NCBI GenBank assembly: GCA_028284955.1
Contig: JANQQS010000202.1
Location: forward strand, 1-36,449
Length of the DNA: 36,449 nucleotides
Direction of reading: 5' to 3'
Origin: Myxococcota bacterium
GTDB taxonomy: Bacteria; Myxococcota_A; Polyangia; Polyangiales; Houyiibacteriaceae
Positions 11,495 to 36,407 of the stretch are shown here, in pieces (position 1 is the stretch's first letter; each line of letters starts with the position of its first letter). Both the position numbers and the translations under genes were made by a program. The notes below the pieces were generated by a model that was not told the origin of the DNA, did no database searches, and saw only the letters and a program-made list of their open reading frames with translations.

Positions 11495-13075
11495 ATGCAG
11501 CGAAGACGCTTTTTGTCGGCGTGTGCAGCGGCCTCGGTCTCAGCATCGCTTAAGTTCCCAAGCCACGCGCGCGCGCACGACGCCTTGGGGCTCCACCTAG
11601 GCACCCCCGAAGAGTTCAGCTTCGCGCGTCTATGTGATCAGGCACGCGCACGCGCACGCCAACCCTACCGGAAGCCCTCCCCTACCGCGCCGGAGAGCAC
11701 GCTCCAAGAAATTGACTACGACGCGTATCAGAAGATCCAGTATCGACCTGAGCGCGAGCTTTGGCACCGGGATCGCAACCGTTTTCCGGTGCGCTTGTTC
11801 CATCTCGGTCGAGCATTTCAACTTCCGGTGCAGGTACACATCGTGGCGCATGGCCGCGCGCGAGCCGTCACGTACTCGTCCGAACTCTTCGAATACGGCG
11901 ACGCCGGGCTCGCACGCCGCTTGCCTCCAAACCTGGGCTTCGCAGGCTTTCGCGTGATGAACGGCGGAGGCGACGAACGAGACTGGCTCGCATTCGCGGG
12001 CGCAAGCTACTTTCGCAGCTCCGGCGCGCTGGACCAATACGGGCTTTCCGCCCGCGGCATCGCCATCGACACGGCCATGCCCCATCCCGAGGAGTTCCCT
12101 CGCTTCACGAGCTACTGGATCGATCAGTCACGAGGCAATCAGCACATCGTCGTCTACGCGCTTCTTGACGGACCCAGCGTGACGGGCGCGTATCGTTTTG
12201 ATTGCAGCCGTCGCCGTGGTCCTACGATGGATGTGAAGGCGCGCGTGTTCGTACGCAAAAACGTTTCGCGACTCGGCATCGCTCCGCTCACCAGTATGTT
12301 TTGGTTTGCAGAAAATAATCGTCATCAAGCAACCGATTGGCGACCGGAAGTGCATGACAGCGATGGCCTCGCGATTTGGAACGGGAGAGACGAACGCCTC
12401 TGGCGCCCCCTCAACAACCCCGGCGGTGTCCGCACCAGCACGTTCGAAGATGAACACCCAAAGGGGTTTGGTCTGATGCAACGCGACCGAAACTTCCAAA
12501 ACTACGAAGACGACGGCGTCTTTTATGATCGCCGACCAAGCGTATGGGTCGAGCCGCGGGGAAAATGGGGAGCAGGCGCCGTCCAGCTCGTAGAGATACC
12601 CACCGACGATGAAGTGTTCGACAACATCGTGGCATATTGGGTCCCCAAACGAGCCGCCAGCGCCAAGAGCGAATTTCGCTTCGACTACCGTCTCCACTGG
12701 AAACGCCATGCCCCATTCATGCCCCGGTCGCTCGCACGCGTCTGGCATACGCGAATCGGTCGCGGCGGGGTCCCGGGCCAACCGCGACCGAAGGGCGTCA
12801 TCAAGTTTGCCATCGACTTCGGCGGAGGGGCGCTCGCCAAACTCGACACCAGCAAACACGTGCGCCCTGTTGTGACCACCTCACGCGGCCGAATCATCAA
12901 CCCCTATGCGCTGAAGGTTGTGGGCACAAAAAAGTGGCGCGCGGTGTTCGATCTTCGCGCGCCTGGATCGGAGCCGGCTGAGCTCCGTTGCTTTTTGCAA
13001 CGCGGTCGCGAAACCATGTCCGAGACATGGCTCTATCAACACCTCCCGTTCGAATTCGATCCCTCTAGCGGCTAG
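11495..13075 (+). CDS. opgD: Glucan biosynthesis protein D (OpgD, MdoG family), Tat-exported
   Basis: OpgG and OpgD proteins are periplasmic and act on the glucan backbone made by OpgH. The 526 residues have an N-terminal MQRRRFLSACAAASVSAS, a twin-arginine (Tat) signal. This favours OpgD over the Sec-exported OpgG. The mature protein begins around the ARAHD stretch. The MdoG domain covers almost the whole chain, with family-like segments such as YDAYQKIQYRPERELW, LFHLGRAFQLPVQVHIV, PHPEEFPRFTSYWIDQ and APLTSMFWFAEN. I chose the ATG at 11495 because it starts at the Tat signal. The frame is open upstream from 11417 but that part has no signal-like character. The gene is divergent from opgH, and its 3' end overlaps the methyltransferase 3' end by 11 bp. 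Confidence 0.95.
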   Translation: MQRRRFLSACAAASVSASLKFPSHARAHDALGLHLGTPEEFSFARLCDQARARARQPYRKPSPTAPESTLQEIDYDAYQKIQYRPERELWHRDRNRFPVRLFHLGRAFQLPVQVHIVAHGRARAVTYSSELFEYGDAGLARRLPPNLGFAGFRVMNGGGDERDWLAFAGASYFRSSGALDQYGLSARGIAIDTAMPHPEEFPRFTSYWIDQSRGNQHIVVYALLDGPSVTGAYRFDCSRRRGPTMDVKARVFVRKNVSRLGIAPLTSMFWFAENNRHQATDWRPEVHDSDGLAIWNGRDERLWRPLNNPGGVRTSTFEDEHPKGFGLMQRDRNFQNYEDDGVFYDRRPSVWVEPRGKWGAGAVQLVEIPTDDEVFDNIVAYWVPKRAASAKSEFRFDYRLHWKRHAPFMPRSLARVWHTRIGRGGVPGQPRPKGVIKFAIDFGGGALAKLDTSKHVRPVVTTSRGRIINPYALKVVGTKKWRAVFDLRAPGSEPAELRCFLQRGRETMSETWLYQHLPFEFDPSSG

Positions 13076-14267
13076 CGAGCGCGATGAGATGTTCTTCTCT
13101 CGCTTCCCCGCTGGTCCAATCGGGACGAGTTTGCGATGCGCTCGCCATCACTTTGAGACCTGTTCGAGAAGCGAGCCGGTCAAGCTGCGTGTCAGCCGGT
13201 ACTCGACGGTCGCCCAGCTGGCCATCGCCGATCAATATCAGGACGAGTCCCTCGGGCGAAAGCACTGCGGCGATGCTTTGAAGCGCCTCAGAAAGCTGCG
13301 CATCCCATTGGGGAAGTTTGTTGGCTCGATTGAGGTCTCGACGCGCGCCGATTTCGGACGATTGAAAGCGAGCGGTATCGAGCCCGAGCCACGCGCAACG
13401 CAAACGGTGTTGGTCGACATAGTCATAGGTGCCGCCGTAGGGAGGCGATGTGAGAACAAGATCGACTGTTTGGTTGGACAGTAGGCTCGCCAGCTTGCGA
13501 ACGTCTCCTTCGATGAATCGAGCGGTCGGGGCGTTCTCAGGCATCGCGCGACGTAGCGCCCTCCAACGGTCGGCCAGTTCGTTCCCTCGGCGCTCGAAAA
13601 ATTCCGTAGGGAGACCTTTGCGAATGCGCCTCGGCACTCGCCGCTCCGAGGTATCTGCATTCTTGTGGCTAAACTTGACGGAAATCGCGCTGAGCAACAC
13701 GAGCATTGCCCGCTGGTCGGATTCGTCGGTCACGCAGAGGATTTCCTTGTACAGACCGCCAAGCTCCTTGACGACGTGACCGGAATACCAGCTCGCGGCC
13801 TCGCGCGATATTGGCGCACGTACCGGAACTCGTGCGCGCACTCGTTCTTCGCTGCGCTGCGAAACTGCGCGCAGACTCTTCAAGAACGCACGAACGGATC
13901 GCTCGGAACGACGCTCCGACTTTACCTCGCCAATGCGTACCGCAAGCGGGTTGAGGTCAACCCCAATCGCCGCACGGCCGTGCACCCGGGATTCAATGAC
14001 TACAGTTCCGCTCCCGCAAAACGGATCGAGCACGCTACCTCCTTCACGGCATAGCGGAATCAGCGTGCGCGCAATGGCAGGATGCATGCGCGCGGGATAG
14101 GCATGGAAACCATGAGTCAGCGAATCTGGGGGCTCCTCTTGTGACGCGCGAATCGCAGTTGCGAGCTGGCGCGCCAGCTCTGGATCTCCAGCCGACCGAA
14201 TCGCTCCGCCTGGTTGACTCAGCGGTTCGCGAGACCGGCGCGATGGCCGGCGCTCTCTGGTGGTCAT
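13065..14267 (-). CDS. SAM-dependent nucleic-acid methyltransferase (TRM11/N4-N6 amino-MTase type)
   Basis: The 400 residues contain the two signature motifs of amino-methyltransferases. The SAM-binding motif DPFCGSGTVV is at 81-90, followed by GVDLNPLA at 102-109. The catalytic SPPY is at 274-277, in TSPPYGGTYDYVDQH. An N-terminal THGFHAYPARMHPAIAR (51-67) precedes motif I, as in a group annotated as site-specific DNA or TRM11-like RNA methyltransferases. The motif order (FxGxG before SPPY) and the long linker between them leave the substrate, DNA or RNA, open. No restriction endonuclease lies nearby. The ATG at 14265-14267 overlaps the stop of the giant TPR gene as ATGA, so it is probably translated with that gene. 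This makes it an unexpected last member of the gliding-type operon. Its 3' end overlaps opgD by 11 bp on the other strand. Confidence 0.9.
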   Translation of the reverse strand: MTTRERRPSRRSREPLSQPGGAIRSAGDPELARQLATAIRASQEEPPDSLTHGFHAYPARMHPAIARTLIPLCREGGSVLDPFCGSGTVVIESRVHGRAAIGVDLNPLAVRIGEVKSERRSERSVRAFLKSLRAVSQRSEERVRARVPVRAPISREAASWYSGHVVKELGGLYKEILCVTDESDQRAMLVLLSAISVKFSHKNADTSERRVPRRIRKGLPTEFFERRGNELADRWRALRRAMPENAPTARFIEGDVRKLASLLSNQTVDLVLTSPPYGGTYDYVDQHRLRCAWLGLDTARFQSSEIGARRDLNRANKLPQWDAQLSEALQSIAAVLSPEGLVLILIGDGQLGDRRVPADTQLDRLASRTGLKVMASASQTRPDWTSGEAREEHLIALASR

Positions 14268-17200
14268 ACCTGGATTTGAATCCCGAGCTTTTCGCGCAAC
14301 CGGAAGTAGTTTTCCGATACGGAAAACAAGACGAGCTCTTTCACTTTTTCCTTAGGCGTGAGATCAGTGCTGCCTTCGGGAGGCAAGGCCTGAATCATGC
14401 GCGTCGCGGTATCGAGATCGTTGCAGACCAAGAAGCCTGCGCGAATCCCCGTAACCTCAACGACCTGCATCCAGCGCTTGATATCCGCCTGACCGCCGCT
14501 CTCCATCAACTTGCGGCATACCTGACGCAGACCATCAAGCTGCGCCGGCTGCACATGAGGTGCGAGCTGCTGCACCCAGGCCTCCACCTGCGGATCCGCC
14601 GGGCTCACTCCCGCCATCCGCATGCCCGCGAGGAGCACCATGCGAAGTTCGGTGTGCGACGTGAGCAGTGTGCGAACGAAATGCTCGTGTTTGTAGTAGT
14701 TGAGGAAGCGACCGAGCACGAACGCCAGGTCCTGTGGGCTGTAGCCGCTAAGCAACGTCGCGCCCGCAACCACCGTCGGCGGATTGCTTCCCGGCATATG
14801 CGCGAGCCCGCCTTGGCTTTGCTGTTCGAGAAAGAGCCGCGGCGCAATGGGTATGTCGAGCACCTGAAGCACGAACCCAAACGTTCTCACGAAGGTCACC
14901 GTGGAGCTCGCGATATCCACCGGCTTCTTCCGGGCGAGCCCCAGCGATTTGTCGGTGGTCGATTTGACGGCGTGCACCGCGGGTGCGAGCAGCTCCATGA
15001 TCTTGCTCACGTACCGATCTTCATCAGGATGGAAGAGGTCGTTGAACCATGCATTGCGATCCACACGCGACTGCGGGCGAATCATTCCCTGGCTGCGGTA
15101 CTGAGCATAGAACTGTTGCTGCTCGGCGTCGGCCTTTTTGAGAAAGCTCAGAGTCGCTGAAAGACACCATGCTTTGTCGTAGGCTCGCGCATCGAAGTAG
15201 AGCTTGTAGAGCGCTCGGTACGACTCCACGCGATAGGGATCCTGGCGGAGCAACCACTGGTGCTCATTGATCGCCTCACCAACGCGCTCGGGCATCATGG
15301 TGTAGATCTCAGCGAGAATCTGGTGCTGCTGCGCGACTTCGGGCTTGAGCTGCGAGGACATCTGAAACGCCTCGGCCGCAGCATCGAAGTTCTTCTGGCG
15401 ATCTCGGTAGACGATGCCGAGCGTATGCCAAAGATTGAACTCGAGGTCGGTCTTGCCCTGTCCAATCACTCGGTGAAGCATCTTTCGATACGCGCGTTCG
15501 AGCCCTTTCCAGTCTTTCTTTGCAGTGAAGATCTTGTTGATGGCTTCAAACGGCTTGAGCTGATCCGCATCCATGTCCAGGGCAGAGTTGAACTTAGCCA
15601 CCGCTGCGTCGTGGTCTTTCAACTCGTCGCGCAAAATAACACCGACCGTATAGGCGTACTTCGCTTTCGCAGCCGGCCGCTCATCAAGGTCGGCAATGCG
15701 GTCGATCACCGATACGGCGTTCTCCCATTGCTTGGTGGTCTGGTACGCACCGAGCAACTTGTGGAGTACGACGTGATTCTTCGGCTTGAGGTCCGCCGCG
15801 TCGGCGTAGTTTTGAATCGCCCGCTGCATATTCGCCAAGCGTTCGCTCCAAAGGTCGCCAATCTCGTCGTAGAGCGAGAAACACTCGTCTTCGTCGGTCG
15901 CGACTTCAAGAATCGTCTTCTTGAAATGGATCACCTGCTCCCATTCGTTCTGCGACGAATAGAGATCGACCATGGCCTCCAACGTGGGACGATGGTGCGA
16001 ATCTTCCTCAAGCGCCTTGTCGAACATGTTGAGCGCCTTGCGCCGCTCTCCCTGCTCGCGTTTGATCACGCCCAGGCAGTGAAAAATGCCTGTGATCTCT
16101 TCCCGCCCGAGTGAATCGCGATGATGCACGAGCAGCATTTGATAGTACTTGAACGCCTTGTCCCACTGCTGCGCTCGATAGTGCGCAGCCGCCAAGCCAA
16201 TGAGCGAAGGCAAGTGCGTTGAGTTCAACTGGTAAGCACGGGTCAGGGCCTTGATGGCTTCTTCGTCTTGCCCGAGTTCGGAAGCGGTTTCGCCCAGCAT
16301 GAATGCCAGCCGATGTTGTTCTTCAGGCTCGCGTTTGCTTGACCGTTTGACGAGCATCTGAAGCAGCGGGAATGCTGCATCCGGCTTGCCGTGCGAGACG
16401 TATTCTTCGACGAGAGGAAGCGCCGCGTCTTCGTTGTCCGAGTCGCGCTCATACGCCGATTCAAACATTTCGATGCCGTGGTCGTGCTCGTCGAGTTGCT
16501 CATCGTAAATGCGACCGAGCTCGACCAGTAGTTTCGATACGACGCGTGGGTTTTCCGTATGCGCGGCCTCTTGTTCCAACACACGCGCCGCTGCGATCCA
16601 ATCACCCGAATCGCAATGAATCTTGCGCATCGCTTCGAGCGACGGAAGGTGACCTGGCTCGAGGTCGACCGCTGTTTGGTAGTGCTCAAGCGCGGAAACG
16701 CGGTCTCCAAGCTCATCGTCAAGAATACGACCCATGCGGTATTTCAGGTCGACCTGCTGGGTGGGTTCGCTCAGCAATCTCGCGAGTTGCTCCATCATCT
16801 CCAGCGCGGAAGAATGCTCTCCTCGCTTGTCGTACAGCCGGGTCAGCGCGTCGAGCGCCTCCGCGTCGTCCGCGTTCATGTTCAGAACGTTCAGGTACGA
16901 ATCGATCGCGCGATCATCGTCGCTGAGTTCGTTGGCGTAAACCTCTCCCACCGCTTTGAAGATTCGTATCTTCTCCGCGCGATCCGGCGTCGCTGAGACA
17001 TGACGTTCGTAGGTTCCGATCAGATCGTCCCAACGCTGCATTCCGTGGTACAGTCGCGCCAGCCCGTTCAAGGCTTCGTCGTGGGTCGGATCAATATCCA
17101 GCACGAGCTCGAGTCTCTCGGCGGCGTGGTCAGGACGAAGGAACTCGCTTTCTTCCATCGCGGCCAAGCGCGTGAGAATCGATACCCGCTCCTTCTCGGT

Positions 17201-20200
17201 GGTGACGACTTCGTACTGAGACTGCAATACCTCAAGCAAAGACGGCCATTGCTCAGTATGCGTGTACAGGCGCTCAAGTCCACGCAGCGCGCTCAGGTTG
17301 CGGTCATCGGCCGAAAGAACATCTCGATAGATTTCGATCGCCGCCTGAACATCGCCAATGCGCGTTTCATATGCCTCCGCGATATTCAGCTTCGCTTCGA
17401 GCACTGCATCCGGCTCCTCGAGCGCGTCCGCCTTTCGTTTGAGCACATCGAGCAACTCATTCCAGCGACCTTTTTCGCGATAAATACGCTCGAGGGCCTC
17501 GAGCGCGGGAACGTTCTGCGCCTCTTCGGAGAGCGCACGCTGAAAGTAGCCCTCGGCCTGCTCGGGAAGGCCCAGGTTTTCCTGGGCCAGCTCGCCCATC
17601 TGAACGAACGTCTCTGCGCGGACCACGTTGTCGTCAGTCATCTCGACCAGCCGACCGAGCACCTGCGCGAGCGTTTCCCACTGCTGGGTGGTGCGGTAGA
17701 GCTCGGCCATTTGACGCATCGCGGGAACGTTGCCGGGGTCGAGCGCCAAGATTTGCTGGTAATAAGGAATCGCGTATTCAGGGTGGCCCAGATGCTGGCC
17801 GTACCAACGGGCGCAGTGAAGACAGATCGCAATTTTGGTCGGCGGATCTTCAACCTGGCGAAGCGCTTCGTTGGCGCTGTTGAGCAATTCGTTCCACCGG
17901 TTGGTGGCACCCGTTACGCGCTCGAGCTCTGCCGAGGTTACGTTGTCTGAAAAGTTGATGCTCCAAGCAAGCTGGAGCGCCTCGAACGCTTGTTCCTTGT
18001 CGTCGAGTTGCTCCTCGTAGACTTCGGCCACGTTCCGCAACAGCCCAACTTGCTCGTCTCCATCCTCGGTGGCATCGGCGCGACCAAGGTACATCTCGAT
18101 CAGGTCCTCCCAGCGACCGGCCTCTTTGTGCAGCTGCTCGAGTCGCTCGAAGGCCAGTTCGTGCATCGGCTCGGTTTCGAGAATCCTCTGATACGCTGAT
18201 GTCCCACGATCCGGATCGCCGACCGATTCCGCCCACATATTCGCGATTTCGATAAGCTGCTCGATCTTTCGCTCGGCAGGCTCAAGCACCTGGGCCCGGC
18301 GCTCCATCACCCGAATCGCGTCTTCGGACATTCCCTCGTCGCGGTGGATTCGCTCTAGCTCGTCCATCGCTTCGAAGTTGTGCGCGTTCAGGTCGAATAC
18401 ATGATTGTACGCCTCGACCGCATCCATCGGCTGCTGCAACTCGGAACTGTAGAGGCGACCGAGCTGCATATAGACGCTCTCCAGCGTCGAGTCGTCGAGC
18501 GTCGCTGCGCCCACCTCGATGATGCGATGCTGAAGGGTGTCGGCGAGCTCATGCCATTGACTGCTCGCGCGATAAATCTCCGCGATCTGAAAGAGTGCGT
18601 CGAGATTCGCGGGATCGATATCGAGCACGCGCTCCCAATTCTGAAGCGCGTTGCCCTCCCGTTCGAGCTTCTCGTACCAAATCCGGGCCAAATCGGCGTA
18701 GATCGCCATGCGCAGTTCATCGCTCTCCGCCACCGATACTTCGCGCTCGAGCACGTCGACGAGATCCGCCCAGTTGCTTTGGGTCGCGTAGATATTCCCT
18801 AGTGCGTTGAGCGATTCAGGGTCTTCGCCGCGCAAATCGAGAACCTGCCGCCACAGGTCGATCGACTTGTCGGGTTCGGTGAGCTGGTCAAAGCCCAAGC
18901 GGGCCATGCGCGCGAGAATGTCGGCGCGCGCGGTATCGCCCACCACCACATCCAGCTCTTTCTCAAACGTGTTGAACAGGTTCTGCCAATCTTGCAGTCG
19001 CGTGTAGATGTCTTCGAGCGCGCGAATCGATTCGGCATGCTCCGGCTCGAGCTCTTGCAGGATGTGCTGGTACGTTTGAATCGCTTCGTCGGTCTGGCCA
19101 AGGTCGTTCTCGAGGAGTTGTCCGAGCCGATAGTGAAGCTCGACCTGTTCGAGCCCTCGGTCCGAAGATGCAATCCGTTTTCTGAGCACATCCGCGAGCG
19201 CAACGTGTGCCCCGTGTTCTACGTAGATCCGGTCGAGTGCAACCAGCGTGTCTTCATCGTCGGGCTGCACCTTGAGCACATACCGGTACGTCTCCTCGGC
19301 TCGTGAGACGTCGCCAACTTCTTCCTCGTACACCCTCGCAAGACGTTTGCCGAGCAGCACTTGTTGTTCTTGGTTGGCGCTTGACTCGAGCGTATCGACG
19401 TACGTGCTGGCGAGTTGATGCCAACCATCGAGAATGCTTCCCAATCGCTCAACTTCCGCAATCGAGTGGTCGTGCGACGGGTCTTCCAAAAGCGCGCGCT
19501 GCATCCACACGAACGCGCGTTGATGATCCCCCGCGCGATCTTCGGCGATTTCCGCAATGCGGTGCATCATCGCGACTCGTTCACCAACATCTTCGTGGTG
19601 GGTAAGCTGAACCTCGTGCACGGTTACCAGCTGATCCCATGCTCCCTGCATACGGTAGAGCGGTTCGAGCACTTCACCGATCGCCACCGGCCGGACGCCT
19701 TGTTCAAAGAGCCGCTCGAGAGAATGCATCGCGGCAGTGTGTTCGGGGGCTGCCGCCAAAATTTCCTGATAGCGCTCGATCGCCTTGTCGACGTCGCCGA
19801 GATGGTTCTCGTACACCTGACCCAACCGAAACTGCAGCCCGAGAATATCGTCCGGCGTCGAAGCGACACTGATTTCTTTATCCAGAATGTCGGCGAGGTC
19901 AGCCCATCGTCCGGCGCTCTCGTAGAGTCGGTCGAGCGCTTCGATCGCCTGCAAATGCCCAGGGTCACCGTCGATGACGAGTCGATAGCGGTCCACCGCG
20001 GCGTCCACATCGCCAACCTGCACTTCGTAAATCTGCGCAGTGCGAAGCGCCATGTCCACAACGTCCTCCGGAGCCCCTTCGCGCAAGGAAGAAATCTCGA
20101 GATCGTAAAGCCGAGTTACTTCGCCCCAGCCGTTGATCTGTTCCGCCAGACGCTCGAGCGAGCTCAACGTATGTTCGTTTCGACTGTCCAAAGGAAGCGC

Positions 20201-23200
20201 TCGGGCATACGCCTCAAACGCCTGGGAAGGCTGGTCGACTTGGAACTCGCGAAGCTCGGCTACTTGGTGCAACAACTCAACCGCACGCAGCGGATCTTGT
20301 TCATGACGAATCTGCACTTCGTGCACGTCGATCAGCTTCGCCCACTCGCCAATCTGCCGATATACAGGCTCGAGAACCCCCGCTGCCGCGACCGGCTCCA
20401 TTCCCTCCGACACCATCGATTCTAACGCTTGCAGAGTAGGCTCGTGATCCGACACGACGTCGAGAATCTCTCGATAGATATCGACGGCGCGCAGCGCGTC
20501 TCCCAACTTGTGGTGCCACAAGTCGGCAATGCGGTAGCGATAGCTGATCACTTCACCCGGATCGACGGCCAGGTCGGCTTCCCGCTCCAGAACGCTCAGC
20601 AACTCTTCCCAGTTTGAAGTCGCCTGATAGAGCGCGTCGAGACGTCCAATGGCGGTGAGATCGTCTGGATCAATTTCGAGAATGCGCTGGTATGCGTCAA
20701 TGGCCTTCGCGCTATTTCCAAGCTCCCGTTCGTATACCGCGCCTACTTCGACGAAGAGACGCTTCTTTTCTTCCGGGTCCCCAACGATATCTGCTTTGCG
20801 GGTGTATACCCCAAGCAGATCTTCCCACTTTTCGAGCCTCAGATAGAGCTCGATAAGCTTGTCCATCGCGTGCTCGTCTTCGACGTCGATCTCGAGCACC
20901 GCATCAAAAACCTGAATCGCGTCCTGCGGTCGCTCGAGAATCTCCTCGTAGATGGAGGCCGCACGAAAGAGATAGTCTTTTTGCTCGTCCGGCATCTGCA
21001 GCATGCGAGACTTCGTAAGGTAGATTTGCGCCAGCTCGTCGTACCGCTCGTTCAGTTGGAACAGACGTTCGAGTGCAGTCGCCGCGCCAAGGTGTTGGTC
21101 GTCGAGCTGAAGCACGCGCTGGTAGTGTTCGATAGCGCCCGCATAATCCCCGAGCTGCTCTTCGCGAATCTCGGCCGCTTTGACGTGCAAGGTGGCAGCG
21201 AGCAACGGGTCCTCGACGCCCCTGACCTGGGTCTCGTAGACTTCCGCCAAATGTTGCGCGCCTCCAGTGAGGCGATTGAGCCGTTCTAATTGCTCCTGGG
21301 TCGCCTCGTTGGCAGGGTCCTCCGCCAGCGCGCGCGCAAAGCACTGAAAGGCTGACCCCGGGTCGTCCAGCGCGACTTCGTAGAGCTCCGCCATACGGTG
21401 CAGCAACTCGGCTCGTCGTTCCGGCGCGTTGGCATGGCGGGCCTGAATCTCGTGCACGCCAATCAGCTTTTGAAACTCGCTCTGGGACTGATAGATCGGC
21501 TCGAGGATCTCCGCGACGCCAACTTGGTGTTCCGGCTCCTGAATCAGGCGTTCGAGCGCCCCCAAAGCGATCTCGTTGTCCGGATGCTGCTCAAGAATTT
21601 CTCGATAGATCTCCACCGCGGCATCCACTGCATGCATGCGCTGCTCTCGCAGTTCGGCGAGCCGCAACATGAGGCGGACTTGAGCGTCAGGATCCGTCGA
21701 CATACTGAGTTGGCGATCCACATTGTCCGCCAAGTCGCTCCACAACTCCTGTCGCGCGTAAAGGTCGTCGAGCGCGGCCAACGCCCGCGTGCTTGTCGGA
21801 TCAAGCTCTAGAATCTCCTTGTAGATTCCGATGGCATGGTCCGGCTGCTGCAAAAACTCATCATGAATCGCGGCCATCTGCGCCAGCAGCTCTTCTTTTT
21901 CTGTCGGATCCGTGGATTGCTCGGCCCGCCGCCGAAGCACTGCACCGAGATCTCCCCAACGTTCAGTCCGCCTATAAAGCTCGTCGAGCGCGTTGAGCAC
22001 GCCGAGGTCTGAGGGATCAAGATCGAGCACGCGCCGATACGCGGATACCGCGCCATCGACGTCATTCAGCTGCAAGTCGGAGATTTCCGCTGCGCGAATC
22101 CACAGCGTCCGCGCGAGATCACCATTGTCGGTCGCGGCTGCGAGGCGCGATACAAGTTCGACGAGCTGGGGGAATTTCTCCTGCTCCACAGCAAGAACTT
22201 CCAAACGAGACAAGGTCTCTGCGCTTTCCGGCGCTTCCGACAAACCTTCGCTGAATGCCTCGAACGCGCGCCCCTGATCACCGAGCCGCGACCCGAACAC
22301 CTCGCCGATTTTCGTAAGCAAGCGAAGACGTTCGTCGCGATCCCCAGAGCCACGATGCAACACGCGAAGGGCTCGAATGAGCGGTTCCCAACTCTCTTGC
22401 ATTTCGTAGATCGGCGACAAAATGCCGGCTGCCTGATGTCCTACCGACTCATCATCCAGCAGCGACTCGAGCGCGTCGCGTGCACCGTCGTGTTCTGGAA
22501 GAATCGTGAGCACCTCGCGATAAAGATCTACCGCGCGAGCTTTTTCGGCTAGGTGAGCCTCGAGCACTCGACCGAGTCGAAACTTTAGTGCGGCCAGCTC
22601 CTCATCTCCATCGGGACCAAGGTCGATCTGGCGTTCGAGAATTTCTGCAAGCTCAGCCCACTTGGATTCCTGCTCGTACAAACGATCGAGTGCACGGAAC
22701 GCATCGACTTCCTCATCCCCATAGTCGGACAGGATCGCTTGGTAGGCAGCCACGGCTTGCTGAGAATCCGCGAGCTCTCGTTCCCAAAGCGATGCTCGCT
22801 CGTAGGCGATTTTTCGCCTTAGCTCTGGATCGGCTTCAAGCTCGAGCCGGCGTTCGTAGATACCGAGGAGATCCTGATATTGGGAGGTTTGACGATATAG
22901 CTCGCCGAGCGCTTCGATGGCCTCATTGTGATCGCCCCGGGCATCGTACACAGCTCGGTACTGGCTGATCGCTTCTTCCACCCGGCCGACACGCGCCAGC
23001 ACACGCGCACAGCTCATGCGCAACTCGATGCCGTCATCTTCCGAAGGGGCGGCTTCAACCGCGGATTGATACACCGCGAGAAGGCGATCCCATCCACCTT
23101 CCACGCGTTCCGCTAGTCGCTCCACATCCTCGCGGATCACGTCTAGGCTGGGCGCGAGACTGAATGCTTCAACGAACTTGTCGAACGCGGTATCCGGCGC

Positions 23201-24334: not shown

Positions 24335-24395
24335 CGTCTCTCCGGCACGAAAGGTTTGAAACTGTCAGACATATTTCTTAAGTGAGTCGCTGACT

Positions 24396-25268
24396 CTAAG
24401 GCGTACCTCCGAGTTCGCCGAGCCGGTCGCGGGCTGCCTTGAGATAGTGCGCCGGCGCTTCAGCTCCGGCGATATCGACGAACTTCTTCAGATAGCGGCG
24501 CGCTTCTTCGGTATTTTTTTGCTCGGCATAGGTCCAACCTAAGGAAAAAAGTGCGTCAGTCATGCCGGGCACGATCTTGAGCGCCGAGCGAAACGCTCGG
24601 ATAGCAAGCTCATGTTTGCTTTGCTGTTGGTACGCCGTGCCGAGCAGGTGATGGAGATTGGCTTCTTCTTCAGTATTGGGCATGGCAACTTTCAAGCCGC
24701 TCTGCAGAACCTGGACCGAATGGTCGAGGTAACCAAGGTCTGCGTAGAGCGCGCCCAGGGCCGCGTACGCTTCGAGGAAGCGCGGGCCCTTCTGAATCGC
24801 CTCGGTGTAACGATGAAGCGCGCCTTGCTGGTCGTCGAGCTCTTCAAGAACTTGGGCGAGCTTGTAGTACGCCTTGAAGAGCGTCTCGTCTTTCTCGATG
24901 GCGTTTTCGAAGGCCTCTTTGGCGCCGTTCCAATCGCCCAGCTCGATCAACACGGTCCCCAGTTTTTCGTGGTAACCGGCTACCTCAGGGTTGACTTTGA
25001 GGGCGCGAGACAAATCCTGTTTCGCGCGATCGAACTTCCGAAGCTCGACGTGCACAAGCGCGAGATTGTAGAGTGCTTGGTCGTTCGTCGGGTCGACGGC
25101 CGTGGCACGCTCCAAACTCTTGACCGCGTCGACGTAGCGCTTCTGCTGCGCGTAGACGACTCCTTCGTTCATGTGGTTCATCGATTCCACGCGAGCGCGA
25201 GAGCAGTTGCCGCCCGTGAGCAACCCGATGATCCATATTCCCAACAGCCAGCGTTCGACCCTGCGCAT
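24396..25268 (-). CDS. TPR protein with lipoprotein-like N-terminus in the Glt-like operon
   Basis: The 290 residues begin with a short hydrophobic signal, MRRVERWLLGIWIIGLLTGG, followed by NC. The Cys at 22 could be lipidated, but the -1 residue is Asn instead of Gly, Ala or Ser, so the lipobox is not canonical. The rest is about seven TPRs, for example AVKSLERATAVDPTNDQALY and KEAFENAIEKDETLFKAYYK. The ATG at 25268 is supported by GGAGG 4 nt upstream. It sits between gltG and gltI. TPR proteins with this fold act as periplasmic or outer-membrane assembly factors such as PilW/Tgl, but nothing here picks out one function. A dedicated helper for the Glt complex is a reasonable guess. Confidence 0.88.
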   Translation of the reverse strand: MRRVERWLLGIWIIGLLTGGNCSRARVESMNHMNEGVVYAQQKRYVDAVKSLERATAVDPTNDQALYNLALVHVELRKFDRAKQDLSRALKVNPEVAGYHEKLGTVLIELGDWNGAKEAFENAIEKDETLFKAYYKLAQVLEELDDQQGALHRYTEAIQKGPRFLEAYAALGALYADLGYLDHSVQVLQSGLKVAMPNTEEEANLHHLLGTAYQQQSKHELAIRAFRSALKIVPGMTDALFSLGWTYAEQKNTEEARRYLKKFVDIAGAEAPAHYLKAARDRLGELGGTP

Positions 25269-25388
25269 GACGCCTCCGGAAGCTTATGTTGCTGATTCTA
25301 AAAAAGATTTACCACGCACCACAACTGTTAAGTTTCGCGCTGGTTGACCGCGCTGGCTGATCTGCGCAAGCCGTATCACGACTGCATC

Positions 25389-25438
25389 GCGAGTCTCGAC
25401 TCGCTACGCGCAGCTGACCACATCCGATCGCTCGGATG
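25389..25438. other. Two adjacent stem-loops between gltG and the TPR gene
   Basis: The first stem has 6-bp arms gcgagt and actcgc (25389-25404) with a 4-nt loop. The second has 7-bp arms catccga and tcggatg (25421-25438) with a 4-nt loop. Both are perfect. They lie in the longest spacer inside the operon (202 bp). Neither is followed by a T-run on either strand, so a classical intrinsic terminator is not supported. They could be a processing site, an attenuator or a weak terminator. Confidence 0.4.
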
Positions 25439-25470
25439 ACCCAGACCGAACCTCGGCGCCGAAGAGGCGA

Positions 25471-27537
25471 TCAACCGCCCGCTGCTTGCAGCATGAACGG
25501 ATAGTTCACGATCACCACCCCACCCCCGTCGGGCGCTGGGAACGTCCAGCGACGTACCGATTGCGCGATGCAGCTCTCCACCCGTTGGTTTCGGATGGTC
25601 GTACCGGCAACCATCGAAGTCTGAACCGAACCGGTTGGGGTGATGATGAATCTCACCGTAACCCGGCCCTCGAGATCCGGTCGCTGGTTTAGCTCCTGCT
25701 CGTAGCAGAACCGAACCTCATTGAGGTGTCGACGTACCACGCGCCGAATCACCTCTTTCGATAGCGAACCGCGTACATCGGCAGATCCCGACCGAATTTT
25801 AGGCACTCGCGCGCTTCGCCCGCGAAACCCGCCGGCTCCTCGCCCGTAACCGCTTCCGTCGCCCGTGCCTCCGCCGTGACCGATGGTACCGAAGTTGCCG
25901 AGACCGATCGTGCCCTCACCAGTGCCACCGCCACCGCGGCCGGTGCCCCGCAGCCCGAGGCCACCGAATCCGAAGTTTTCGCCAATTTGGTCGCCCATCA
26001 AAGCCCCCAGCGCGCTCATCGGATCATTGCCCAGAGCCGTGTCTTGTCCGTAGGGCGAAGTGGGCGAGTTCCACGATCCGCTCATCGCGCGCAACGTCCC
26101 TAGAATACCGGCGTTCCGCGCCTGCTCACGAGCTTCCTCCCGCGCCATGTGGGGATCTTCGTTATCTTCTGGCCCTTCGATGCCGTATTTGTTGGTGGTC
26201 TTCTTGGACTCCTCTTTGCCCATCTGACCTTCTTCGTCTTTGTGACGCTTGCCCTGCCCGCCTTCGTTGTCGTCGTCGGCGTTTTGTAGCCACTCTGGCT
26301 CTTCTTCCTCCTCGGTCGCAGGAGGCTCCATGAGATATTGAACGAGGCGAGAATCCGCGTTGAGCAAATCCAAGGAGAGTGAAGCGGGGCTCGGGGGCAG
26401 GAAGTAAAACGTGAGCAGGAGAATGACGCTAAATAGCAACGATCCCCCGATGTACATGATAGGCCGCCAGTCTGGCGCAAATCCCGCGGCAATCCGCTTT
26501 CCTGCGTTCACGGGCTTGACCGCGAACGTAAAGCCTCGGTACGCAACGCGCGCAGTGGCCCCCTCAGCAAGCGGGAACTGCATGGCTCCCGGAAGCTCGG
26601 GACATGGAGCGAGCTGTCCTTCGGCGCGAAGCTGGTCTACTGTCCGCATTTGACCGTTGGCTGCGGTGACCTCCCCGGTCGCGCCTTCGGGAACGACCAC
26701 CGCTACGCCCGCGCCAGACTCCACGCACACGGGCATGCGATCAGTCCCCAGCACCTCGCTACCCATCAGGTAGTCCACTTCGAGTTTGCCGGAAGGCTCG
26801 CCGACGTAGAACGCGCGAGCGGGCGAGAGGTGCTCCACATGCAGGACGCTCTTGTCGCCCCACATGACGATGACCTCAACGGCGCGCTCTGCCGATTCTA
26901 CCTCGTCCGCCGACACCGGCGGACCGCTCGCCGCGATTCCGTACTCCACGTTCTCGTTGGCCCCAGGAGCGTCTTGCGCTCCGGCGGCCGCGCCTACTGG
27001 CGCAGCGAACGGATTGGCCATCGGCGACGCCGCGGCAACCACCGGATCCGGAGCAGCAAAGGGATCCGGAACTGGGGGGGGCGTCGATGAAACACGCGGC
27101 GGGGTTGGCAGAGGCTTCGGCGCGGCGGGCGCGGCTTCTTCGATCGCAGCATCGCTCAGCGAGAGCTCTCCTTCACCTTCAGGTGCCTGGGGAGCTCGAA
27201 CAACGGTATCCGCTCCGTCGAGTTCGGAGGGGAGTACTTCCACGGTAACGCGGGTGTTTCCAAGCTTGATTTCGTCGCCATTCTTCAGCTTGCACTTATT
27301 AACCTTCTTGCCGTTGACGATCGTTCCCGTCGCCGATCCGAGATCGATGATAAAGATCTCGTCTGGGCCGGTGACTTCAACGACGGCATGCATACGCGAG
27401 ACGTGTTCATCATCGATCCGCAGATGGCTCGACGAAAGCTTGCCTACTTTGATGATTTCCTGCGCCAACCGTTCAGTACGAACCAGCTGGTCGCCTTCGT
27501 ACACATGGAACAGAATGGGAATCTTAGGATCGCTCAC
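25471..27537 (-). CDS. gltG: FHA-transmembrane-TonB-like gliding protein, GltG/PglI-like
   Basis: In M. xanthus, GltG spans the inner membrane and is thought to pass force from the cytoplasmic motor side to periplasmic Glt proteins. The 688 residues show an FHA domain (about 9-100, with VSRMH at 46-50 and SATGTIVNG at 68-76) and a Pro/Ala-rich linker. A second cytoplasmic segment covers about 216-345, and one transmembrane helix about 359-380. After that come an acidic, charged periplasmic region, a Gly-rich linker (about 530-585) and a C-terminal TonB-like 'AgmX/PglI' domain of about 100 residues. The segment NKYGIEGPEDNEDPHMAREE resembles GltG/GltJ proteins. The start is GTG at 27535-27537, supported by GGAGG 4 nt upstream. 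It is 49 bp after the gltF-like gene. I exclude GltJ because the N-terminus is FHA, not the response-regulator/zinc type. Confidence 0.93.
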   Translation of the reverse strand: MSDPKIPILFHVYEGDQLVRTERLAQEIIKVGKLSSSHLRIDDEHVSRMHAVVEVTGPDEIFIIDLGSATGTIVNGKKVNKCKLKNGDEIKLGNTRVTVEVLPSELDGADTVVRAPQAPEGEGELSLSDAAIEEAAPAAPKPLPTPPRVSSTPPPVPDPFAAPDPVVAAASPMANPFAAPVGAAAGAQDAPGANENVEYGIAASGPPVSADEVESAERAVEVIVMWGDKSVLHVEHLSPARAFYVGEPSGKLEVDYLMGSEVLGTDRMPVCVESGAGVAVVVPEGATGEVTAANGQMRTVDQLRAEGQLAPCPELPGAMQFPLAEGATARVAYRGFTFAVKPVNAGKRIAAGFAPDWRPIMYIGGSLLFSVILLLTFYFLPPSPASLSLDLLNADSRLVQYLMEPPATEEEEEPEWLQNADDDNEGGQGKRHKDEEGQMGKEESKKTTNKYGIEGPEDNEDPHMAREEAREQARNAGILGTLRAMSGSWNSPTSPYGQDTALGNDPMSALGALMGDQIGENFGFGGLGLRGTGRGGGGTGEGTIGLGNFGTIGHGGGTGDGSGYGRGAGGFRGRSARVPKIRSGSADVRGSLSKEVIRRVVRRHLNEVRFCYEQELNQRPDLEGRVTVRFIITPTGSVQTSMVAGTTIRNQRVESCIAQSVRRWTFPAPDGGGVVIVNYPFMLQAAGG

Positions 27538-27586
27538 GTCGCCTCCGCGCTCGCCTAGGGATCAACACCCTGGCTGCACTTGAATA

Positions 27587-27889
27587 CTACAAATCTTCTA
27601 CCGACTTCAGCATTTCGTTAATGAAGTGCTCCTTGACCCGAATGAGCGACGACCGCTGTCCGCGCCGACGCACATTCAGAAGCTCGCCATCCGGACGAAC
27701 CAAATCGCCGTCCACGATGTCGTCTTCGAAATCGTATGTTGTCGCCTCGGCTCCGCCGGAGTCTCCTCCACCAGCCGGCGCAGGCGCCTCTGCCTCTTGG
27801 GCAACCGCTACGTCAGCCGCCAACACGCCCGTTGCCGCAAACCCAGCCGCCGCCAGAACCACTACCCACAACGCTCGAACCCTGTTCAT
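27587..27889 (-). CDS. Small exported protein, GltF/CglF-like
   Basis: The 100 residues start with a Sec-type signal (MNRVRALWVVVLAAAGFAAT), cleaved near AVAQ. A low-complexity Ala/Pro/Gly stretch follows, then a conserved-looking core DFEDDIVDGDLVRPDGELL and a basic tail that ends HFINEMLKSVEDL. Its size, signal, core and position between gltE and gltG match the small gliding protein named GltF or CglF in myxobacteria. The identification is from memory and position. It would act in the periplasm or at the inner membrane. CAGTGAGGG occurs twice in the 35 bp before its ATG, on the minus strand. Expression is likely with the rest of the operon. Confidence 0.85.
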   Translation of the reverse strand: MNRVRALWVVVLAAAGFAATGVLAADVAVAQEAEAPAPAGGGDSGGAEATTYDFEDDIVDGDLVRPDGELLNVRRRGQRSSLIRVKEHFINEMLKSVEDL

Positions 27890-27983
27890 CTTGCTACCCT
27901 CACTGTGTTCGCCCTCACTGGAGGCTCACCTTGACCTGTGCTGCCTGTTGACACTCGTGAAATCATAGCTCGCTCGACGATTA

Positions 27984-27997
27984 GGGGCTAGAGCCCC
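27984..27997. other. Small GC-rich hairpin in the gltE-gltF spacer
   Basis: The arms ggggc and gcccc surround a 4-nt loop at 27984-27997, inside the 202-bp spacer 27890-28091 between gltF and gltE. A T-run is lacking on the downstream side of the minus-strand transcript. It may slow or end some transcripts between the two genes. The rest of the spacer shows no gene. Confidence 0.35.
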
Positions 27998-28091
27998 CAA
28001 CCTCATGCAGTGGTTCGTTTGTTCAGACAACAGGCGATGCGAAACGTTCCCGTCTATACCGCGATTATCTTTTTTGTTCTCTGAGCGCCGT

Positions 28092-29432
28092 TCATTTCTG
28101 CTGCCCGGCCTCTCGCTGCATACGCTCGGCTTCCCGCTGCATGGCCTCGCCTTCACGAATGGCCGCAATCGCGGTGTCGATATTTTGGATCCGACCAGGA
28201 CGACAATCGGACCGCCGCCGCCGCCGTTTCTTTCCGCGCCGTCGCGAGCTCTGGTTCTGACATCGCGCCCGCACGGACTTTACAGCGTCTGAAAACTGCT
28301 TGCCCCCACCCGCCCTCGAGAGGAACTGTTCGTAGAATCGTTTTGCCTTCTGCAGGTCGCCAACCGTGCCTCCCATGTAGTCTTGGAACAGCAGGCCGAG
28401 ATTGAAGTAGGCCTCCGGGCGCCTTCGATCGAGTTCCATCGCTCGTTCATATTGCGTTTTTGCTTCCGGAAATCGTTCCAGACCACGCAGCGCCGCGCCC
28501 AAACCAATCACCGCTTCGTAGCTACCGTTCTTGAGCTCCGAGGCGCGCACGAACGCCTTCCGCGCATCCTCGTATCCGCGAAATGAGAGCGTGATTTGCC
28601 CGAAATTCATTTGCGCTTCGTACATGTTGGCATCTAGCTTGATAGCTCGCTCGAAGTAACGAAGCGCCTCGATCACATCGCCCTTACGAATCTTGACCAG
28701 GCCCCAGGTATTGTAGATCGGCGCATAGGTTCTATCGATCAGCTGCGCCTGACGACAGACCACTTCCGCCAGGTCAAGGGACGCCTTGTTGTCAGACACG
28801 AGGCCACGATTGTAGTAGAGCAGAGCCATCTGGTTGAATGCAGGCAGATAGTCCGACTCGATGGCGAGCGCGCGGCGAAGATTTCTGAGCGCTTCCTTCT
28901 CCTGAGCTCCGCCCGCTTCTCGCTGCATAATCGCCATATTGACGTATCCAGACGTGCATTGAGGGTCGTCTCGAATCGAACGCTGAAAAGCTGATCGAGC
29001 CGCCGACGAGTTGCCGGATTCGAGATCAAGAAGGCCGACCGCGACACGCGCTTTGCAGAATGACTGATTGGATTCCAGCGCACGATTGTAGGCCCGACGT
29101 GCCCCCCGAGCGTCTCCGCATCGAGATTTCACGAGCCCTACCATGTAGATCGCTTCCGTAAACGCTCCACCCTGGGCAGAAATCGCATCTTCGAATTTCT
29201 TCTCGGCCTCGCCGCAGCGTCGATCGTTCCAACCTTCACGCTCGTAGCGTTGAAACAGTTCCACCCCCACCGTCCACTTGTCGTGGGCTTCACGGGTGAC
29301 GGCCTGTCCGCTGGCTGTTCGAATCGCGTCCCCACCGGTGGTTTTCGCGAGTGATCCGTCGCCCGATTTGCCACCGCATCCACCCGCGATGAGCGCGCTG
29401 GCGAAGATTCCGCACCAGACTTTCCTACTCAC
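28092..29432 (-). CDS. gltE: TPR lipoprotein, GltE/AglT-like
   Basis: GltE (AglT) is a TPR lipoprotein needed for adventurous gliding in M. xanthus and is thought to act in the periplasm with GltD and GltC. This product has 446 residues, close to that protein. The signal MSRKVWCGIFASALIAGG ends in the lipobox AGGC with Cys19. TPRs fill about residues 50-390, for example ALRYFERAIKLDANMYEAQM and YERAMELDRRRPEAYFNLG. The C-terminus is very basic (KKRRRRRS), followed by a helical tail rich in Glu, Arg and Gln. The start is GTG at 29430-29432, overlapping the gltD stop codon (GTGA), so the two are translationally coupled. No ATG precedes the signal. The identification rests on architecture and gene order. 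Confidence 0.9.
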   Translation of the reverse strand: MSRKVWCGIFASALIAGGCGGKSGDGSLAKTTGGDAIRTASGQAVTREAHDKWTVGVELFQRYEREGWNDRRCGEAEKKFEDAISAQGGAFTEAIYMVGLVKSRCGDARGARRAYNRALESNQSFCKARVAVGLLDLESGNSSAARSAFQRSIRDDPQCTSGYVNMAIMQREAGGAQEKEALRNLRRALAIESDYLPAFNQMALLYYNRGLVSDNKASLDLAEVVCRQAQLIDRTYAPIYNTWGLVKIRKGDVIEALRYFERAIKLDANMYEAQMNFGQITLSFRGYEDARKAFVRASELKNGSYEAVIGLGAALRGLERFPEAKTQYERAMELDRRRPEAYFNLGLLFQDYMGGTVGDLQKAKRFYEQFLSRAGGGKQFSDAVKSVRARCQNQSSRRRGKKRRRRRSDCRPGRIQNIDTAIAAIREGEAMQREAERMQREAGQQK

Positions 29433-32400: not shown

Positions 32401-33109
32401 GAGAGAACATCACCTCATCCATCCTTCGAAAGTTCGGATGGTCTTGAATGAGCATCGCGTACGTACGAATCGCGTCTTGGCGAGCCGATTTAAGCCGCGC
32501 CGTCGCTTGTTTTTGGCGATTCCTTGCCTGGCTGCATTTGGCGCGATTTTTTTGCTTGCGACAGGCGCGGAAGATCGGGTCGTCAAACGATCGCACCTGC
32601 GCCGTAAGCGCCTGCTGCATCTCAAAATATGTTTCGGCAAGTCGGAGGAGGATGTCGGGGCGCTGCGCGTTGGTTTTCGGCGTATTCTGAACCAGACGCT
32701 TGAGCACCCGCACCTCGCGCTGAAGAAGCTGCCAGGCGCGTGCGCGGATTTTCTGGCGCCCCCGCGCAGTGGCCGCGTCGATCTGAACCGAAGGCCCAGT
32801 GGGACCCATCTTCTTCGCGCTGGCCTTTGCTCGGGCCGCAGTTCGCAGACGCGAGCGCGGCGTGGCTCCTCGCGGAGGACGGCCGCGATTTGGGGTTCCC
32901 CCGGGGCATTGATCGACCGCCTGCCGAGCCGACGCCGGAATGCACTGACCGCCGCCGCTTGAAGAACGCGATGCGATCTGTTGGTTGCCGCTTTGAGCGT
33001 GCAGCGGCAACGCAAAACCGAGCGCCCCGGCGATCGCTAGCCCTGCGAACATGCCCTGCGGCGGCGCGATTCGCTTGCAGAATTCTATACTATCCAATCG
33101 ACCCTTCAT
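29429..33109 (-). CDS. gltD: Large TPR periplasmic protein, GltD/AgmU-like
   Basis: GltD (AgmU) in M. xanthus is a TPR protein of about 1200 residues in the periplasm that moves in helical paths with the gliding complex. Here 1226 residues start at the ATG at 33107-33109, 5 bp after the stop of the upstream gene. The open frame continues to 33193, but that would overlap the upstream gene and delay the signal peptide. The signal ends at LPLHAQ. A low-complexity basic region follows (about 25-90), then TPRs along most of the chain, including YAMLIQDHPNFRRMDEVMF and YHRLIKNYPQSRFIPHAYLS. A basic insert (KTRRRGRRKRDEPEQSEEDK) lies near the middle. The tail is Gly/Ser-rich. The stop overlaps the gltE start. 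Several Cys pairs may form disulfides. Confidence 0.93.
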   Translation of the reverse strand: MKGRLDSIEFCKRIAPPQGMFAGLAIAGALGFALPLHAQSGNQQIASRSSSGGGQCIPASARQAVDQCPGGTPNRGRPPRGATPRSRLRTAARAKASAKKMGPTGPSVQIDAATARGRQKIRARAWQLLQREVRVLKRLVQNTPKTNAQRPDILLRLAETYFEMQQALTAQVRSFDDPIFRACRKQKNRAKCSQARNRQKQATARLKSARQDAIRTYAMLIQDHPNFRRMDEVMFSLAFGLEELRQHDRARQVYHRLIKNYPQSRFIPHAYLSFAEFFFNDGDMRAALQFYNKVIEFPPSRNRVYGYAVYKSAWAHYNREDYRAALQKFVETVEFATQHPNSPDASNLARQARREMVLPYAQVGTPDRALEFFRRYSKDEDQALGTFENLGELYFDTGKWPATISVYHKLIAERPRGNKLCYWQSRVTNAIISSKPKADQVRELERMVDVYDSFSSRRRPAEALAQCKNETAGILAWLATSWHRETVGTDTQPGTNDKKTMGLSARLYRLLVEKFPNMDDIKFPNIDRRDWPTAYKVAYYHAELLWKMEEWAQCGPAFDKVVELNPRGEFTSDAAYAAVLCYNNLYQQQYQGREREVRTAEKTRRRGRRKRDEPEQSEEDKYKKRPFTQLEQGMLRAFSRYVCFVNKSDDLAQVKYRRARIFYEANHYEEAAVVFRDIAWNHRESDLAEYAANLYLDSLNILGTKTEPVRTECVDELGDAIDPLSDFYCKTESAREEHSDLCGVLGQLQCDVLRKKAESFEKSKKHKEAAATYVRIFRRYRECGKLDEVLYNAAINFEAARLLGRAIQVRNVLIERFEDSQWAKRSVYLVGANFHALAFYEQAASYYERFAKQFPGEDGSKCSEEDKEAGVCPVAHEALQNAVFFRIGLGETEAAEANARLFAKNYRRKRPQETSQVVFSIGTIYERSENWQEVARHYKKFLKDYRRIALPHQIIRANVMLAKAYWNTNDKRKAQGFFKAAVSTWQRGAASRILGQADVSDADRITQLKEALDSAAEALFYLAEYRYEEFKAVRFPTYRGGRSLDRVNKWAKGDFAKWVNQKMAALRSAETEYNKIAEVKVVVREGLPPLESPPWQIASAARIGQMYRSFVDAFRDAPIPTEIENDPDLFDVYVGALDEQSEPLQKQAISKFEFCLTTATNVRWFNDWSRTCEQELNGLNPRRYPLAAELRGNASYVHGTVGRPGAVKLGGGSGGSKSGNAAGGGS

Positions 33110-33114
33110 GAGCC

Positions 33115-34896
33115 CTACCTTCCACACCGATTGGTCACTTGCTGACGATAAAACCCAAGTTCGTCGCGCCAGTATTCGCCGTTGAACGGCCAAAGCTGAT
33201 GTTCTTCGTCGACCTCGACGTCGCCGCGACCAGCTCGCTGCGCCGCCACCATCTGCTGTTGAACTTCTTGGTCCAGTTGCCCGCGGCGGAACGTGGCGAG
33301 CTCAAGCTCGACGGCGTCCATCTGGTTCTGCAGGTCCTGAAGTTCTCGAATCAAACGCGCGTATCGGTTCCGCGCGAGATCGCCAGCCTGGTCCACGGCG
33401 AAAGATTTTGCCACCGCGACATCCTGAAGAATCCGCGCGCCAATCGACGAGTTCTGAAACTCGGGTGGCGCTTCGGACAGCCTCTTCTCTTCCGCTTCGA
33501 GCACCTTTACGTACTCCACATGCCCAAGGAGTGTGCGATCGGATAGCGCGGTCGACACGATGCCGCGAATCCTCTCGCTCATATCGGCTTCCCCGGCGCG
33601 CACCTGCTGAAGAAATCGGAAGAACTGGGTGTTGTCCGAAAACCGTGCAAGAACTTGCTCGAGCTCCCGCTTGACCGGTCCGTAGCGAGAGTGGAACTGG
33701 GCCAGAACCGCTTCCGTGTTCTCAAGCTGACAGTTCACAAAAAACGTGACCGCTTTGATCACCAACGCTTCGGGATAGTACGAAGACTCGAAGTAGGGCG
33801 AAAAAAGAGTATGGATATTGCCCAGGGCCCGGGAGTATTCGTCGGCGAGGAAAAACGCCCAGGACGATTCGAACACCGCGTCGAGCCAGTACTCGCTCGA
33901 TTGAGTGACCTGGTTCCACGCTTCCACGGCTTGCCCGAGCAACCGACCGTCGGGAGGCAACCGCTCGCCGGTCTCTCGGTCGGTACGATTCGCCGCGGTG
34001 TAGTAGATGCGCGCGAGCGAAATCCACGCGAGATCCTGCATGCGATTTTCGTCGGTCACCCCTTTCGCATCGCCATCGTCGATGGCACGCAGGATTTCCC
34101 GAAACGCCGCGATCGCAGGTCGCGCGCGCTGCAAGCGAATCGCCGTGATGCCTTCAAAAAATTTTGCCTTTACGTAGTAGGGAGAGTCGCTCGCAACCTG
34201 CTGAAAAATATCCGTAGCCTCTCCAAACTCGCCTTGGCCGTACTTAAATCGCCCCATGAGATAGAGGAGATGGCTGTACAGGCCGCGGCTCTCCGCAGTG
34301 TCGAACTCTGAAAGCTGCTCGACTCCATACTGCCCAACCTTCTCCACGAAGCCCGCCGACTCCGGTAGCTGGGTCGCAAGCTGAGCAAGCCACTGCAGCG
34401 TCTGACCAAAGTAAAGATGCGCCCGACCCTGCTGGACGATCTCGTCAAAGATCGCGAGCGCCGATTGATAGTAACGCAAATGGTACAAGCACTTTCCGAG
34501 GAAAAACTTGGCCTTCTGCAAGTTCGCGGGGGCATCTTGGCTCTCTCCATCGACGATCCGCTGAAATTGGACCGAGGCCTCGGCGTACCGCTGGTTCTGG
34601 TACAGACGCAGTGCGTTCGCGAGCACCTCCGATGGAGGCCCATCCGCCGGTGGAGGCGGTGGCTGGGTCGATTCGGGTGCAGCTTCCTCTTGCGCGGCTC
34701 CCTCGCCTTCGGACTCGGTTCCGACCTCCTCCTCGGTGAACGTCATGCCCTGCGCGCTCGCCGTTGAAGGTGTTCCCAAAACACCTCCGCCAACGATCGC
34801 GACGGCCCCAACGACCGCCGCGACGTGAACCATCACGAAGGTCGTGACGATCGCGCTGGCCGCCGTGATGCACCGAAATAGACCGCTACGCCTCAT
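33115..34896 (-). CDS. Exported TPR protein, GltC-like, first gene of the Glt-like operon
   Basis: The 593 residues start with a signal peptide (MRRSGLFRCITAASAIVTTF onward, cleaved near TASAQG) and an acidic, Pro-rich linker. TPR-like helices cover about residues 95-330, for example RYAEASVQFQRIVDGES and YQSALAIFDEIVQQG. The C-terminal half is helical and ends with EHQLWPFNGEYWRDELGFYR, which I recall from GltC-type proteins. In M. xanthus gltC lies in a separate cluster (gltABC), so a GltC here would be a fusion of the two loci. The name is therefore a suggestion and I leave the symbol empty. The ATG at 34894-34896 has GAGGAG 6 nt upstream. No gene lies upstream on the same strand, so this is the likely operon start. 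Confidence 0.92.
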   Translation of the reverse strand: MRRSGLFRCITAASAIVTTFVMVHVAAVVGAVAIVGGGVLGTPSTASAQGMTFTEEEVGTESEGEGAAQEEAAPESTQPPPPPADGPPSEVLANALRLYQNQRYAEASVQFQRIVDGESQDAPANLQKAKFFLGKCLYHLRYYQSALAIFDEIVQQGRAHLYFGQTLQWLAQLATQLPESAGFVEKVGQYGVEQLSEFDTAESRGLYSHLLYLMGRFKYGQGEFGEATDIFQQVASDSPYYVKAKFFEGITAIRLQRARPAIAAFREILRAIDDGDAKGVTDENRMQDLAWISLARIYYTAANRTDRETGERLPPDGRLLGQAVEAWNQVTQSSEYWLDAVFESSWAFFLADEYSRALGNIHTLFSPYFESSYYPEALVIKAVTFFVNCQLENTEAVLAQFHSRYGPVKRELEQVLARFSDNTQFFRFLQQVRAGEADMSERIRGIVSTALSDRTLLGHVEYVKVLEAEEKRLSEAPPEFQNSSIGARILQDVAVAKSFAVDQAGDLARNRYARLIRELQDLQNQMDAVELELATFRRGQLDQEVQQQMVAAQRAGRGDVEVDEEHQLWPFNGEYWRDELGFYRQQVTNRCGR

Positions 34897-36256: not shown

Positions 36257-36407
36257 ATGGCCTGCGCTGCCGGGGCGCTCGCGCTCAGACCAAAATCTCA
36301 GCACTCTATGGGACGCGACTCGAGTTGACGATCAACAGGAAGACATCCGACGAACTCCCCGGCAACCATGTCACGTGCCTCCTGGCGGGGGAGTTTGGGT
36401 GAATCGG

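Follow-up and report, generated by a model that had tools for sequence, protein, structure and literature searches.

A probable Glt transducer operon in a Polyangiales myxobacterium keeps a gene order common to the Polyangia

One of the closest described relatives of the locus presented here is the Glt machinery of Myxococcus xanthus, which is encoded by a gltD-J cluster (G1), a gltK-B-A-C cluster (G2), and the motor genes aglRQS (M1) (PMC3169522). Glt homologues have also been reported in Sorangium, Haliangium, and Plesiocystis, and in Anaeromyxobacter G1 and G2 are joined (Luciano 2011, PMC3169522). M. xanthus carries in addition a close paralogue, Nfs (nfsA-H), which consists of paralogous A-H components without GltI, GltJ, or GltK and uses the same AglRQS motor for spore-coat assembly (PMC3858216). 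Among the outer parts of the gliding machine, GltA and GltB, two paralogous barrels, bind GltC (PMC4488436). The initial annotation of our locus compared it to an M. xanthus "G5" locus; the correct names are G1 for gltD-J and G2 for gltK/B/A/C (Luciano 2011, PMC3169522).

The window, i.e., the whole stretch of 36,449 nucleotides that was analyzed, spans all of contig C85 in a draft genome of 6.07 Mb (97% complete, 223 contigs). Eight tightly spaced genes run along its minus strand from 34896 to 13065, and their open frames bear out the initially annotated order of gltC-gltD-gltE-gltF-gltG-TPR-gltI followed by a methyltransferase gene. Spacing within the row is small: the C/D, D/E, and I/methyltransferase pairs overlap or abut, and the other gaps are 49 to 202 bp. 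The features are as follows.

33115..34896, minus strand: gltC, a 593-aa TPR protein with an N-terminal signal-like hydrophobic stretch (NF033756 gliding_GltC, 279 bits, E 8.8e-83)
29429..~33109, minus strand: putative gltD, a large TPR protein of ~1226 aa with a signal-like N-terminus, matching TPR families; the ATG at 33109 is a more likely start than the upstream TTG
28092..29432, minus strand: gltE, a 446-aa TPR lipoprotein with the N-terminus SALIAGGC (NF033758, 95 bits, E 3.2e-27)
27587..27889, minus strand: gltF (cglF; GltF is CglF in NCBI naming), 100 aa with a signal peptide-like N-terminus (NF033764 gliding_CglF, 73.8 bits, E 8.3e-21)
25471..27537, minus strand: gltG, with an FHA domain at 30-93 (PF00498), one hydrophobic segment near 357, and an AgmX/PglI-type TonB-like C-terminus (NF033760, 440 bits, E 2e-131; NF033768 domain above cut-off)
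24396..25268, minus strand: an unnamed TPR protein of 290 aa with a signal-like N-terminus, matching TPR profiles
14264..24334, minus strand: putative gltI, a 3356-aa TPR protein matching TPR profiles, with no signal peptide
13065..14267, minus strand: a methyltransferase gene of the TIGR01177/Trm14-like kind, tRNA-methyltransferase-like, with a 4-bp overlap with gltI
35258..35815, plus strand: a gene for a Cys-rich lipoprotein-like protein, transcribed divergently from gltC
35796..36179, plus strand: yraN (UPF0102; NF009154 above cut-off, PF02021), probably a conserved housekeeping neighbor
36373..36449, no strand: a 77-bp dispersed repeat at the contig end, with the same sequence as the opening 77 bp of contig C153

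Profile searches recovered Glt similarity for GltC, GltE, GltF, and GltG, and the core set of GltC, GltD, GltE, and GltG lies entirely within the window, with C, E, and G recognized by profile and D by architecture and homologues. Because no model matches GltD or GltI, these two were assigned without a profile, on the basis of TPR content, length, position, homologues, and whether a signal-like N-terminus is present (GltD) or lacking (GltI); GltI contains no hydrophobic segment above 1.6 along its 3356 aa and was read as cytosolic. In a GltD tree, the window falls within a Sandaracinaceae-type clade, and the closest named GltD loci include those of Sandaracinus and Sandaracinaceae MAGs. Two later-recruited parts are also in the window, GltF (by the CglF profile) and GltI, and a GltJ candidate is found on contig C76. 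No GltK/CglC was recognized at the locus, for which the Cys-rich lipoprotein-like gene that diverges from gltC is a candidate by position only.

The matches stay below the NCBIfam equivalog cut-offs for GltC (279/450 bits), GltE (95/225 bits), GltF (74/90 bits), and GltG (440/650 bits), and since no matched protein reaches its cut-off, the profiles alone do not prove orthology to the gliding copy as opposed to a paralogous one. Sorangium cellulosum also falls under the cut-offs (GltC 276, GltE 69, and GltG 324 bits), and its GltF has no match to the NCBI model; the cut-offs therefore appear tuned to organisms more closely related to M. xanthus, and an equivalog cut-off is a naming rule, not a biological feature of the machine. 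Because the scores in the window are at least as high as those of Sorangium (279 versus 276 bits for GltC, 440 versus 324 bits for GltG), by this measure its GltC and GltG are no further from the NCBI models than those of a named, cultured Polyangia strain.

The locus shares with M. xanthus Glt the components GltC, D, E, F, G, and I, the D-E-F-G order, a GltG with an FHA domain and a TonB-like tail (see PMC3169522 for the M. xanthus architecture), and a GltI that is a giant TPR protein without a signal peptide, while candidates for further parts (a barrel pair, a GltJ candidate, motor triplets, and MglA/B) are found elsewhere in the same genome. The main difference in order is that gltC, correctly recognized in the initial annotation, heads the D-I row, whereas in M. 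xanthus it sits with gltK-B-A at the second locus. In addition, gltH is absent, a conserved TPR gene lies between gltG and gltI, gltJ is elsewhere, and the barrel pair, as placed by synteny, is a few genes off on the divergent side beyond ftsY and not co-directional with gltC.

To place this arrangement in context, we read 20 regions of genomes belonging to the same order or class, together with 79 named loci. The C-D-E-F-G-TPR-I row is collinear in 58 of the 59 loci in which a single stretch carries C, D, E, G, and I, and the lone exception (L140) may be an ORF-calling artefact; once duplicates were removed, 52 distinct complete loci remained, all of which contain gltF as well as the TPR gene between gltG and gltI. 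GltC orthologues, 41 to 75% identical, head the clusters of relatives, and GltI orthologues come after the TPR gene. The collinear loci include those of Sorangium cellulosum So ceGT47 and Polyangium fumosum (L160 and L161), where the same row is accompanied by the divergent lipoprotein and yraN and, in Polyangium, by an upstream B1 barrel as inferred for the window, although GltD is only ~34% identical to that of the window and no methyltransferase linkage is shown. A genome of another class (L089/L193) has a similar C-D-E-F-G-TPR-GltI order, in which the TPR gene again separates gltG from gltI and a barrel gene immediately precedes gltC.

The initial annotation regarded the order as rearranged, a description that the comparison does not support: judging from these loci, C-D-E-F-G-TPR-I is the rule in Polyangia, with a similar order in another class. 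Because the intact row spans the Polyangiales and, in similar form, one other-class genome, the two-locus split of M. xanthus may be the derived state. Variation is seen in a minority clade (L152, L154, and L155), in which C-D-E-F-G is followed by two other genes and not by the TPR gene or gltI; the first gene beyond gltG in L152 encodes a histidine-tRNA ligase. Five further regions (L129, L136, L147, L151, and L157) encode GltD homologues with 35 to 43% identity to the window GltD, and no gltC, gltE, or gltG was recognized in the surrounding DNA examined. In the other-class genome, a gene with a weak MIDAS-adhesin/CglD-like match occurs with the barrel gene directly upstream of gltC (L089:6094-8642).

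Neither a barrel nor GltJ is present in the window, as first noted, but the window is an entire contig, so "not in the window" cannot mean absent, and candidates for both are in the genome. The 77-bp repeat at its end gave 47 genome matches, frequently at the ends of contigs, and probably caused the contig break; with more than 40 copies, its exact overlap with C153 alone is no proof that the two contigs are adjacent. The head of C153 encodes proteins of 207 aa, 290 aa (HEAT repeat), and 600 aa, then FtsY and two adjacent paralogous TIGR04565 barrels (B1 and B2), and these genes match in order and orientation those that relatives carry past yraN, on the divergent flank of the glt cluster. In 28 named loci, B1 could be seen upstream of gltC within the 10 kb of flank examined. 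Since synteny in relatives puts the C153 head genes there, the barrels most likely begin ~5 kb past the edge of the window, and the pair are candidates for GltA/GltB. The contig-end and synteny analysis speaks against a real absence of the barrel.

The GltJ candidate on C76 is a 559-aa protein with a zinc ribbon, a GYF domain, and a tail (122 bits), and it matches 7z3c and 7zok, the structures determined for the zinc ribbon and the GYF domain of the M. xanthus protein. It adjoins a gene with PilB N-terminal-like and receiver domains (L085, 1786-5059), a pairing that recurs in L071, L072, and L076. Elsewhere, two frames after gltI in L193 show matches to the GltJ model, in its N-terminal and its C-terminal part. 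A 547-aa GltJ candidate downstream of gltI in L182 proved to be a sigma-54 regulator, and NF033763, considered as a possible Glt outer-membrane part, is TraB. MglA is encoded on C101, with a strong match to solved MglA sequences, and mglB adjoins it.

Four MotA-ExbD-ExbD triplets are present in the genome (one on C158, two on C30, and one on C182), a count equal to that of the Glt-like clusters found (C85, C88, C183, and C182). Only on C182 is a triplet linked to a Glt-like cluster; the motor for the C85 cluster is unlinked. The two triplets on C30 are divergent and lie side by side (L066, 8583-12749). On C182 (L060, ~764-11438), GltD-, GltC-, barrel-, and GltG-like genes are linked to their own MotA+ExbD+ExbD triplet, and C88 (L058, 569-10639) encodes a barrel, a 283-aa protein, GltC-, GltD-, and GltE-like proteins, a 151-aa protein, and a GltG-like protein without FHA, a set that resembles nfsA-G.

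The gene content, the domains, the conserved order, and the other parts observed in the same genome make it very probable that the locus represents the Glt transducer operon of a Polyangiales myxobacterium of the Sandaracinaceae type, comprising the same set as M. xanthus gltC plus gltD-I. From the roles described for Glt parts (PMC3169522, PMC3858216, and PMC4488436), we infer the likely interactions, motor partner, and gliding function. GltG would span the inner membrane, with its FHA domain in the cytosol and its TonB-like tail in the periplasm, and would couple to a proton-driven MotA/ExbD-type motor of the AglRQS type. Force could then pass via periplasmic GltC, D, E, and F to the outer-membrane barrel pair on C153 (GltA/GltB-like) and on to the substrate, while on the cytosolic side GltI and GltJ would connect the complex to MglA. 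As a result, the complex would be moved directionally over the cell surface, producing gliding.

The alternative that survives best, although we regard it as improbable, is that the cluster encodes an Agl-driven surface transporter that is paralogous and carries a different cargo, such as an Nfs-like spore-coat machine, and not a copy of the motility apparatus. The presence of at least three further Glt-like clusters in the genome (C88, C183, and C182) lends this some plausibility, as does the precedent of M. xanthus Nfs, a close paralogue that shares its motor with gliding (PMC3858216). However, the Nfs complex is an A-H set without GltI, J, and K (PMC3858216), and gltI belongs to the cluster in the window. 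Moreover, this cluster scores highest of the four for GltC and GltG (279/440 bits versus 100/193 bits for C88), and C88, with a single barrel-?-C-D-E-?-G row, no gltI, and a GltG without FHA, is the more Nfs-like.

The initial annotation raised the possibility of a divergent envelope-spanning machine, in which the TPR protein stands in for GltH, the methyltransferase is a new part, and there is no outer-membrane barrel, and not a copy of the Myxococcus motor; this reading is largely refuted and we consider it very unlikely. Several observations speak for it. No gltH lies between gltG and gltI (at this locus, 202 bp separate gltG from the TPR gene), the TPR gene does occupy that slot, no barrel is in the window, and the methyltransferase gene is the last of the row and overlaps gltI by 4 bp. 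A TPR gene found in every distinct complete cluster is not a local replacement, however, and the lack of gltH here fits the proposal that gltH, like gltK, is a recent acquisition (PMC3169522); because Bdellovibrio is a glider without GltH (PMC3169522), GltH is not required of all Glt members. The barrel pair is next door by synteny, candidates for the missing parts are in the genome, and the scores match or exceed those of Sorangium.

The methyltransferase is unlinked to gltI in the relatives examined despite its overlap here, and it was rejected as a member of the unit. Homologues are present in all 16 relatives tested, but the gene follows gltI in none of 17, and in the 10 relatives whose flanks were read none has gltI beside a methyltransferase homologue. 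On the Sorangium chromosome, it lies at 8.46 Mb and gltD near 3.42 Mb, ~5 Mb apart. No second genome with the gltI pairing was found, and we therefore treat the gene as what it appears from these comparisons to be, an unrelated neighbor only. Least probable of all, to the point of being negligible, is chance similarity among unrelated TPR proteins, whose repeats do yield many spurious cross-matches, since the matches of GltC, GltF, and GltG to specific models extend over most of each protein and the seven-gene row is kept across tens of genomes.

With the Glt transducer operon as the preferred reading, the constant companions of the row deserve attention. The N-terminal motif of the TPR protein, GGNCSRARVES, recurs in relatives. 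The Cys-rich lipoprotein-like protein has no Pfam or NCBIfam match, and its fold, predicted with confidence (mean pLDDT 84), did not match any PDB entry significantly; it is found at the same place in 58 named Polyangia loci with invariant cysteines, and 77 of 78 loci have the lipoprotein and/or YraN divergent from gltC. These two proteins could be true structural Glt parts, the lipoprotein perhaps in the place of GltK/CglC, although we lean slightly against this, and conserved position alone is weak evidence for a machine part because yraN and ftsY are also conserved as neighbors.

The apparent oddity of the locus is thus the normal layout of a whole group, an intact row found across the Polyangiales and in similar form in another class. 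The short list of constant, unnamed companions provides candidates for machine parts, and if the TPR protein and the Cys-rich lipoprotein are indeed structural, the Glt machine outside the Myxococcaceae would have components beyond the M. xanthus parts list.
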